34,607 nucleotides of DNA, taken from the NCBI GenBank assembly GCA_016926755.1, contig JAFGNZ010000221.1:1-34607 (forward strand), in the 5' to 3' direction. How positions within the stretch are numbered: position 1 is the first letter of the stretch; each line of letters opens with the position of its first letter. Positions 33,087 through 34,607 of the stretch are shown here, one piece after another. A program made the position numbers and the translations under genes. Source of the stretch: Myxococcaceae bacterium (lineage in GTDB: Bacteria > Myxococcota > Myxococcia > Myxococcales > Myxococcaceae). Below the pieces are notes generated by a model, which was not told the DNA's origin, did not search any database, and saw nothing but the letters and a program-made list of their open reading frames with translations.

Positions 33087-34007
33087 ATGACGTCCGCCGT
33101 AGAGCGCTCGGCTGTGGAGCAGGTCGACGTGCTCGGCATAGGCCTGGCCAATGATCTCTGCGAGCCCCAGTTCGTCCCGCTCGTCCGCGAAGCCTACGCG
33201 CGCGGGCTGTGTGATTACCTGACCATCTACGTCTACGAGAACTACAGCCTGGACTTCCTGAGGAGCATGCGCGCGGCCCTGCCACCGGGCCTGAGGTACG
33301 TCTGGCACGCCAGCGGCGACTTCGAGCTTCCTTATGATGGGCCGTCGGTCGCCACGAACTGGGAGCGCATCCGGACCATCGCGGAGCTCTGGCACCCTGC
33401 CTGGGCCACAGAGGACGTGATCGTCACGAACTTCGCGCGCACCCGACCGCAGGGAAACCCGAACTACATCCAGCCCTTCCTCACCGAGGAGTGCCTCGAG
33501 GTGTGCGTCCGGCGGATGCGGGAGATCAGCCAGCAGGTGCCGGTGCCGCTCTTCCCCGAGGTCCCGCACTTCTACATGCCGGGCCCCGATGAGATGCACC
33601 TGTCGACGTTCTTCCGCCGGTTCGTGGACGCGACCGGGGCGATGCTGAACTTCGATGTCGGCCACTTCTTCAGCTACAACCTGCTGCACGGACACGCGCC
33701 ACTCCACCGTATCGAGGAGTTCCCGCTGGATCACGTCGGCGAGATCAACACCGCGGGCGGCATGGTGGGAGATCCAGAAGGCGGCAGCTGGGTCGACGAC
33801 TACGCGGGGCCGCTGAACCCCTTCACCGAAGAGGTGCTGCGCTACGTCATCCCGCGCTGCACACGGCTCCAGGCCCTCTACACGGAGACGATCGGGGCCG
33901 AGCCATGGGTGCTGTTCCACAACCTGGAGCGCCTGAACGAGCTGTTCCCGAGTGCACGCCGGCAGCGGCGGGAGCCCAGGCTGGCCGCGGCGAGCGAGGG
34001 AGGGTGA
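33087..34007 (+). CDS. DUF692-like multinuclear iron oxidase (MNIO), putative RiPP-modifying enzyme
   Basis: A 306-residue TIM-barrel protein whose motif order fits DUF692: VYENYSLDFL (Glu51), VWHASGDFE (His74), LWHPAWATED (His103), PLFPEVPHFY (Glu158), LNFDVGHFFSYNLLHG (Asp190, His193), VGEINTAGG (Glu219) and WVDDYAGPL (Asp237/238). In known members (MbnB, TglH) such residues bind two or three irons, and the enzyme oxidises Cys in a ribosomal peptide. Here the usual Glu-Ile-His of the sixth motif is Glu-Ile-Asn, so it is a divergent member. GGAG lies 8 nt before the ATG. The next gene begins 4 nt after its stop and encodes Cys-containing repeats, the expected substrate. An isomerase-type TIM barrel is the main alternative. 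Confidence 0.72.
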   Translation: MTSAVERSAVEQVDVLGIGLANDLCEPQFVPLVREAYARGLCDYLTIYVYENYSLDFLRSMRAALPPGLRYVWHASGDFELPYDGPSVATNWERIRTIAELWHPAWATEDVIVTNFARTRPQGNPNYIQPFLTEECLEVCVRRMREISQQVPVPLFPEVPHFYMPGPDEMHLSTFFRRFVDATGAMLNFDVGHFFSYNLLHGHAPLHRIEEFPLDHVGEINTAGGMVGDPEGGSWVDDYAGPLNPFTEEVLRYVIPRCTRLQALYTETIGAEPWVLFHNLERLNELFPSARRQRREPRLAAASEGG

Positions 34008-34011
34008 GCCA

Positions 34012-34607
34012 GTGAGCCTGTACGATCTCCAGATCCTCTTCAGTGACCTGACCCTCGGTCGGATCGACGTCGCGGCCGTGGAGCAGCTTCGAGATCCAAA
34101 GGACGCCCAGGCGCTCGGGTATGAGCTCACCGAGCGCGAGGTCTCGCAGCTGCGCGCGATGAACTGGCACTCCGTCCGGCGAGGCCTCGAAGCCCATCAC
34201 CGGATTGGCGACACGCTCAAGCGCGTCCGCTACCTGAGGGACCCAACGAGCGGTGCCTACCTCGGTGCACAATATCCGTATCCCAACCCTCAACTCAGCC
34301 TGGAGAAGACCATGAGCGAGTCCGACAAGAACGATCCCAATCTGAAGGCCAAGCCGCAGCCCTCGACGACCAGCGAGAGCAAGGCAGAGACGCTGCTGGG
34401 CGATCTCCAGCAGCCCGTTCGCTACCCCCCCACCGCCCCATCCGTGGATCCCTCGGCGTATCAGCCAGCCGCGGTCCGCTGCGCTCCCGCGGTGGATCCG
34501 TCCATGTACCATCCGGCCGCGGTCCGCTGCGCCCCCGCGGTGGATCCGTCCATGTACCATCCGGCCGCGGTCCGCTGCGCCCCCGCGGTGGATCCGTCCA
34601 TGTACCA
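34012..34607 (+). CDS. Putative multi-core RiPP precursor with Cys repeats (partial)
   Basis: The frame opens at GTG 34012 (GGAGGG 7 nt upstream) and is still open at the window end (198 codons seen). Residues 1-85 look like a folded helical leader (DLQILFSDLTLGRID, GYELTEREVSQLRAMNWHSV), recalling LigA-like leader domains of some RiPP precursors. Residues 101-145 are polar and disordered. Then AVRCAPAVDPSMYHPA repeats from residue 154, two full copies and a third cut by the edge, preceded by a degenerate copy with Tyr for Cys (PVRYPP, VDPSAYQPA). An in-frame ATG at 34312 with GGAG 7 nt upstream could start a shorter form (MSESDKNDPNLK). It is coupled to the MNIO gene. Confidence 0.7.
   Translation, partial: MSLYDLQILFSDLTLGRIDVAAVEQLRDPKDAQALGYELTEREVSQLRAMNWHSVRRGLEAHHRIGDTLKRVRYLRDPTSGAYLGAQYPYPNPQLSLEKTMSESDKNDPNLKAKPQPSTTSESKAETLLGDLQQPVRYPPTAPSVDPSAYQPAAVRCAPAVDPSMYHPAAVRCAPAVDPSMYHPAAVRCAPAVDPSMY
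34471..34607 (+). repeat. 48-bp tandem coding repeats
   Basis: Units start at 34471, 34519 and 34567. The first two differ at one base (GCT against GCC, silent), and the third is identical to the second for the 41 bases visible. Each encodes AVRCAPAVDPSMYHPA. The array runs off the window, so the copy number is unknown. The spacing is exactly 16 codons and without spacers, which excludes a CRISPR array. Confidence 0.97.

Follow-up and report, generated by a model that had tools for sequence, protein, structure and literature searches.

A candidate RiPP maturation cassette pairing a diverged MNIO enzyme with a tandem-repeat precursor

The window analysed here is a stretch of 34,607 nucleotides from a Myxococcaceae bacterium (assembly GCA_016926755.1, contig JAFGNZ010000221.1, C314 in our numbering). 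At its end lie two co-directional genes coding for a predicted multinuclear non-heme iron-dependent oxidative enzyme (MNIO; DUF692) and for a protein with a leader-like domain and Cys-containing tandem repeats. Peptide oxidations of unusual kinds have been described for MNIO enzymes. The two genes would open a cassette for the maturation of a ribosomally synthesized and post-translationally modified peptide (RiPP), which we also found in two other genomes, Janthinobacterium fluminis hw3 (locus L111) and G528.

A gene pair interrupted by a contig end

The open reading frame (ORF) of the MNIO enzyme starts with ATG at 33087, with GGAG upstream, and stops at 34005-34007. The precursor gene starts with a GTG at 34012, 4 nt past this stop, and its frame remains open to the end of the window. 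Tandem Repeats Finder detected a 48-bp tandem at 34468-34607 (2.9 copies, 98% matches, score 273). The first-pass annotation had described a DUF692-like enzyme followed after 4 nt by a leader and Cys-repeat protein, and this description holds. The features are as follows.

33087..34007, + strand: diverged MNIO (DUF692) gene, 306 residues (PF05114 profile, fold, 67% identity to the L111 MNIO)
33747..33749, + strand: codon of Asn221, which replaces the His of the EIHxAG motif (MAFFT alignment; matched with PbsC His247)
33801..33803, + strand: codon of Tyr239, which replaces the His of the D-x-H motif (MAFFT alignment; matched with HvfB His244 and PbsC His262)
34012..34607, + strand: 5' part of the precursor gene, 198 residues, interrupted by the contig end and continuing on G000:C166:1-456 (L027)
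34012..34311, + strand: N-terminal leader domain, a predicted helical bundle, Os1348/NHLP-like (NF038399 E 0.003, below cut-off; fold match)
34313..34315, + strand: internal ATG in the precursor frame, preceded by GGAG and lying between leader and cores (position kept in all three precursors)
34441..34470, + strand: degenerate, Cys-less first unit SVDPSAYQPA (sequence)
34471..34518, + strand: core repeat 1, AVRCAPAVDPSMYHPA (48-bp tandem)
34519..34566, + strand: core repeat 2, AVRCAPAVDPSMYHPA (48-bp tandem)
34567..34607, + strand: core repeat 3, incomplete because the contig ends here (C166 adds at least four Cys units)

In the rest of the 9.6-Mb genome, the sole other sites of the 48-bp repeat are the first bases of contig C166. 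There the array continues in frame with at least four further Cys units, and the frame closes with a pentapeptide-repeat domain and a stop codon at L027:456. The same architecture is uninterrupted in J. fluminis (L111:8501-9304) and in G528. Judging from gene order, the join of C314 to C166 is very probable, because a single J. fluminis contig carries the genes from MNIO to kinase in matching order. Extension past 34607 had been suggested as the way to the precursor end, a partner protein and an exporter; the precursor end was found on C166, and the other two were not recognised in the cassette.

The Cys units of the window genome read AVRCAPAVDPS[MW]Y[HQ]PA, with 16 residues per unit, and the consensus over the three genomes is AVRCAPA-[VI]-DPS-[MW]-Y-x-PA. 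J. fluminis has four such units, G528 five and the window genome at least seven. Residues A1, V2, R3, C4, A5, P6, A7, D9 and Y13 are invariant in 16 of 16 Cys units, with synonymous codon variation; the variable positions are 12 (Met or Trp) and 14 (His, Gln, Asn, Arg or Ala). The repeats look selected, since A-V-R-C-A-P-A, the Asp and the Tyr are kept in every Cys unit. Both sister precursors also carry a half-unit, HIDPS[IM]YNPA, that corresponds to the degenerate first unit of the window. The internal ATG at 34313-34315 is a possible second start, which would yield a leaderless form.

The domain C-terminal to the array matches PF00805 (E 9.3e-22, 76.7 bits for a cut-off of 20.2; 68.2 bits in the sister protein). 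Between J. fluminis and the window genome it is 69% identical, and the leader, the least conserved part of the precursor, is 29% identical. The model of the J. fluminis precursor has five helices in residues 3-71 (block pLDDT 67-84 for residues 1-60), disordered repeats, and short strands at the C-terminus (block pLDDT 54-60). The top three Foldseek matches of the leader were all to Os1348 (6lk7), with TMt values of 0.63-0.71, probabilities of 0.57-0.77 and E values of 1-2, and no SonA chain was among the matches listed for this predicted helical bundle. A second pentapeptide-repeat gene lies about 27 kb along C166, outside the operon (L073:7329-7844, - strand).

An eight-gene operon and its sister clusters

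The gene pair opens an operon of eight co-directional genes in the order MNIO, precursor, MT1, rSAM, MT2, AspH, kinase and PRMT, which overlap or are separated by a few nt (17 at most). MT1 and MT2 are predicted to adopt the TP_methylase fold (E 6.9e-12 and 6.6e-18, respectively), and MT2 matches SonM and OphMA with E values of 3e-22 and 1e-16. The rSAM gene codes for a B12 radical S-adenosylmethionine methyltransferase that scores 379.5 bits with TIGR03975 (cut-off 281.85), and its Fe-S cysteines Cys271, Cys284 and Cys287 are invariant in six sequences. AspH belongs to the Asp/Asn hydroxylases (PF05118, E 4.6e-28). A P-loop kinase-like protein and a PRMT-like methyltransferase are encoded by the last two genes, and within the shared cassette we recognised neither a protease nor an exporter gene.

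The J. fluminis locus was found by a scan with the rSAM alignment, in which the next best match was 38% identical. Its contig carries MNIO, precursor, MT1, rSAM, MT2, AspH and kinase genes in the order of the window operon, and its eighth gene codes for a Methyltransf_24 methyltransferase that replaces the PRMT-like protein. The identities between the two sets are 67% for MNIO, 59% for rSAM, 58% for MT2, 50% for AspH, 40% for the kinase and 36% for MT1. The third cluster, that of G528, came from a profile search of 392 genomes around J. fluminis. The cassette thus spans two distant phyla, Myxococcota and that of Janthinobacterium.

Over L111:7486-14780 the J. fluminis and G528 clusters are ~91% identical, with no blastn match in the flanks compared. 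Because two such similar clusters sit in unrelated flanks, this is, as far as the sequences allow one to judge, a mobile cassette that moves as a unit. In 1-kb bins, the G+C content of the J. fluminis cassette is mostly 62-70%, as against 50-58% just downstream. A short ORF just upstream of that cassette (L111:7186-7428, - strand) resembles, by eye, a transposase zinc-ribbon fragment. Beside the G528 cassette and outside its shared part, the reverse strand of L194 (383-5620) codes for a radical-SAM protein with a CxxxCxxC motif, and two more ORFs of the same stretch recall, by eye, a LodA-type oxidase and a ferritin-like protein.

NG86 omega between J. fluminis and G528 was computed for six genes: precursor 0.073, MNIO 0.095, rSAM 0.123, MT2 0.177, kinase 0.30 and MT1 0.40. 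These six are thus under purifying selection. A decayed, non-functional operon was ruled out by the intact frames, the low omega values and the conservation across phyla. A precursor with a conserved core and co-encoded modifying enzymes occur together across genomes, as expected of a RiPP cluster. We are therefore confident, short of certainty, that this is a RiPP-type maturation cassette, composed of a leader, a multi-unit array and several enzymes, because the MNIO gene and the leader/tandem-core precursor gene are found side by side in two more genomes, where the gene order is conserved and selection is purifying. The first-pass annotation had proposed a new RiPP system on the basis of the gene pair. 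This part of its proposal is borne out by the synteny and the low omega values; most of the enzymes of the operon and the pentapeptide-repeat C-terminus had escaped it.

No further members, and no second precursor, were found in 195 Myxococcota genomes, and an order-level sample of 399 genomes around G528 yielded none either. In viral contigs and plasmids we found no relative, only generic DUF692 or pentapeptide matches. An exact peptide-word scan for close MNIO relatives across genome contigs confirmed none, but it sees near-identical sequences only and missed the 67% identical sister. As the contig-wide scans used few peptide words, absence elsewhere is weakly supported; the MT2 alignment had no stretch conserved enough for such a scan. 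Outside the sister clusters, we found no rSAM relative beyond 38-39% identity. The Myxococcota relatives of MT2 (25-30% identical) have no adjoining MNIO match in the 19-20 kb stretches compared. The nearest Myxococcota MNIOs are mostly long-ORF DUF692 proteins of ~550 residues, 33-39% identical over part of the sequence.

Such a long-frame DUF692 protein is encoded in the window genome at G000:C5:12648-13163 and has homologues (e.g. L009, L010, L038-L063), mostly of ~550 residues or more and with a C-terminal part beyond the MNIO domain. Of the 195 Myxococcota genomes, 77 encode such a protein, usually as a single copy, and most of the cases fall into the family of the window. In another genome (G090, L098:8469-11235), a TIGR03975-like rSAM gene immediately precedes one for an Asp/Asn hydroxylase, a pair that the window operon also contains; no MNIO match was found in this 13.5-kb contig. 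In the window itself, a flavin Trp-halogenase-like gene (PF04820; 28030-29241, - strand) lies ~3.8 kb upstream of the MNIO gene. Two core units of the window genome contain Trp (WYQPA), in contrast with none in J. fluminis or G528, and tblastn with the halogenase gave no match in the loci of these two genomes. A link between the halogenase and the Trp-bearing units is possible, from one case only.

The MNIO metal site and the fate of the repeats

The MNIO enzyme of the window matches PF05114 over residues 132-260 (E 1.7e-9, 37.7 bits for a cut-off of 25), and its J. fluminis sister scores 37.2 bits. Its predicted TIM-barrel fold is nearest to MbnB (7tcr and 7fc0; TMt 0.70, E 1e-8), in a model with a mean pLDDT of only 59. 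The first-pass annotation had named a sugar isomerase as the identity that would undo its assignment. We discarded this candidate, since Pfam gives PF05114 only and MbnB outranks sugar epimerases in the fold search. The best NCBIfam match is ApyH, with 51.3 bits, far under the cut-off of 400.

A MAFFT alignment with other MNIOs showed that His74, Asp110, Glu158, Asp190, His193, Asp237 and Glu267 are kept at the motif positions. Asp110 stands at the second metal-ligand position and was matched with PbsC Asp133, following the ligand list of PMC12257519. Asn221 and Tyr239 are also found in the J. fluminis enzyme, and the G528 translation has EINTAG and DDYAG motifs. His247 and His262, their counterparts in PbsC, are among its predicted iron ligands (PMC12257519), and the H244A variant of HvfB is inactive and has lost thiooxazole formation (PMC13419390). 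Ligands were matched by shared motifs, with the PbsC and HvfB sequences outside the alignment and a model too weak in this region for geometry.

In the maturation that we propose, the 16-residue units, numbering 4 to 7 or more, would form a flexible array enclosed by a helical Os1348/NHLP-like leader on one side and the short pentapeptide-repeat C-terminus on the other, and the leader would present this array to the enzymes. At least six co-encoded enzymes would modify this repeat precursor. From their families, the B12 radical-SAM enzyme would C-methylate the units, AspH would beta-hydroxylate the invariant Asp, and MT1 and MT2 may jointly carry out a methylation that resembles that of borosins in altered form. 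The MNIO enzyme would oxidise its target at a metal centre with an unusual set of ligands. As a best guess, each unit would place its Cys in this metal site, where the Cys would be oxidised or would anchor the oxidation of the neighbouring Asp or Tyr; the latter option is suggested by ApyH, whose action on Asp depends on a Cys that stays unmodified. As no protease or exporter gene is apparent, the modified repeat protein might itself be the product, or it might be cut by host proteases. We tentatively suggest, with more doubt than confidence, a new RiPP class in which an altered-ligand MNIO, a rebuilt borosin-fold pair, rSAM and AspH jointly modify each unit, so that no small peptide would be released and the mature product would be a repeat protein with many modifications.

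Several observations weigh against the proposed maturation cassette. Only three members are available, and two of them, J. fluminis and G528, are close relatives. The window array spans two contigs, so that its seven Cys units are a minimum. The leader scores 17.8 bits with the Os1348/NHLP profile NF038399, its only NCBIfam match, for a cut-off of 40, and the E values of its fold match to Os1348 (6lk7) are only 1-2. At the positions of SonM Tyr58, Arg67, Tyr71 and Tyr93, MT2 has Y, D, Y and M in all three clusters, and thus keeps two of the four; lacking Arg67 and Tyr93, it could be inactive or perform another reaction. The R67A variant of SonM has trace activity only (PMC8429565). MT1 keeps none of these four positions, with L, [PG], [TV] and A in the three clusters. 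The MNIO enzyme lacks two His residues of the conserved metal-ligand set (Asn221, Tyr239), and it too is possibly inactive or catalyses another reaction. Lastly, no Pfam match to an MNIO partner (DUF2063, MbnC or PME-type 2) was found in the eight-gene operon or in the sister cluster, although a remote PME-type 2 fold may be present, the leader itself being one candidate.

Three of the explanations to be weighed are variants of our proposal that differ in the role of the MNIO enzyme. The first-pass annotation had it oxidise each repeat Cys. It had also offered metal binding or the release of several copies of one peptide as possible uses of the array. In its canonical form, this would turn each Cys into a thiooxazole or an oxazolone-thioamide and give a multivalent metal-binding peptide. 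The single Cys per unit, kept in all 16 units, the adjoining MNIO and precursor genes in all three clusters, and the existence of Cys-repeat MNIO precursors (the oxazolins, PMC12452194) agree with it. Nevertheless, we find this outcome unlikely, given the two replaced His residues in the window and sister enzymes, the loss of thiooxazole formation in HvfB H244A (PMC13419390), the lack of a recognised partner, and a nearest named family, ApyH, that acts on Asp (PMC10635010). Oxidation of each Cys by this MNIO is not supported, since in all three clusters the MNIO lacks two His ligands and MT2 lacks the catalytic Arg of borosins; its target may be the Cys, the Asp or the Tyr, all of them invariant. 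An ApyH-like modification of the Asp, Tyr or Arg of the unit, with the Cys as anchor or metal ligand only, is conceivable, and we would give it a real if minority chance. Asp and Tyr are as invariant as Cys, ApyH is the best NCBIfam match, Asp110 occupies the second ligand position like PbsC Asp133 (PMC12257519), and ApyA requires an unmodified Cys (PMC10635010); the operon, however, already has a separate Asp/Asn hydroxylase, and the ApyH score of 51 bits remains far from the cut-off of 400.

The MNIO-fold protein might also be redox-dead and serve as a scaffold or leader-binding subunit, with rSAM, AspH and the methyltransferases performing the modifications. The two lost His residues and the lack of a recognised partner would fit, and the altered active site of MT1 suggests that non-catalytic paralogues may belong to the design. 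This is rather improbable in view of the strong purifying selection on the MNIO gene (omega 0.095) and of the seven motif residues kept from His74 to Glu267. Finally, an ordinary repeat protein next to an unrelated DUF692 gene would be in line with the pentapeptide domain alone being a common fold. We consider this highly implausible, as Myxococcota and Janthinobacterium share the MNIO-to-kinase order, the enzymes and the 16-residue unit, and as the boundaries of the cassette between J. fluminis and G528 enclose the full gene set.

Known systems and meaning of the cassette

Several known systems share parts of this cassette. Aminopyruvatide clusters (PMC10635010) likewise group an MNIO, a methyltransferase and a B12 radical-SAM enzyme with a single precursor, in which a Cys is conserved. 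They differ by the C-terminal Asp of ApyA, which ApyH modifies, by the partner ApyI and often by a P450, and the parts of the published description that we consulted mention no repeats, TP-methylases, kinase or pentapeptide domain. The window MNIO is itself distinct from ApyH, with its low score and without two conserved His residues. A tandem Cys-repeat layout is already present in oxazolin/Buf_EGKCG precursors of MNIO enzymes, with 17-residue repeats and up to 58 Cys (PMC12452194). The window cassette departs from them by having no recognised DUF2063 partner, another motif and many extra enzymes.

The split borosins SonM/SonA (PMC8429565) also combine a separate enzyme of the TP-methylase fold with a precursor that has an N-terminal helical leader. 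Here, in contrast, there are two TP-methylase-fold proteins, one with Arg67 replaced by Asp and Tyr93 by Met and the other with all four positions changed, and the leader fold is nearest to Os1348, with no SonA chain among the matches listed. Os1348 of Pseudomonas sp. Os17 (6lk7, PMC7726476) is a standalone protein of 85 residues, whereas the leader is here fused to cores and a pentapeptide domain. By the curated cut-off, the rSAM enzyme is a member of TIGR03975; only in these three clusters did we see it together with an MNIO, TP-methylases and a pentapeptide-repeat precursor.

The combination of a multi-unit repeat precursor with this set of enzymes was not found in the open-access literature, judged mostly by titles, abstracts and keyword passages. 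With the same coverage, we found no multi-core substrate on which enzymes of the borosin and MNIO types work together. No DUF692 protein with a pentapeptide repeat was found in this literature, and no pentapeptide-repeat RiPP precursor is described in the titles and abstract beginnings of the papers listed. Judging from its predicted components, the cassette is a new hybrid RiPP type. In it, a multi-core substrate would be shared by machineries of the borosin and MNIO types, and the RiPP precursor would end in a pentapeptide-repeat domain. The J. fluminis copy, complete on one contig and with four units, is directly expressible. The role of the third iron site of MNIO enzymes is an open question in the field (PMC13419390). 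A natural MNIO subfamily from two distant phyla, with His replaced at each of two ligand positions, can probe the roles of those ligands.
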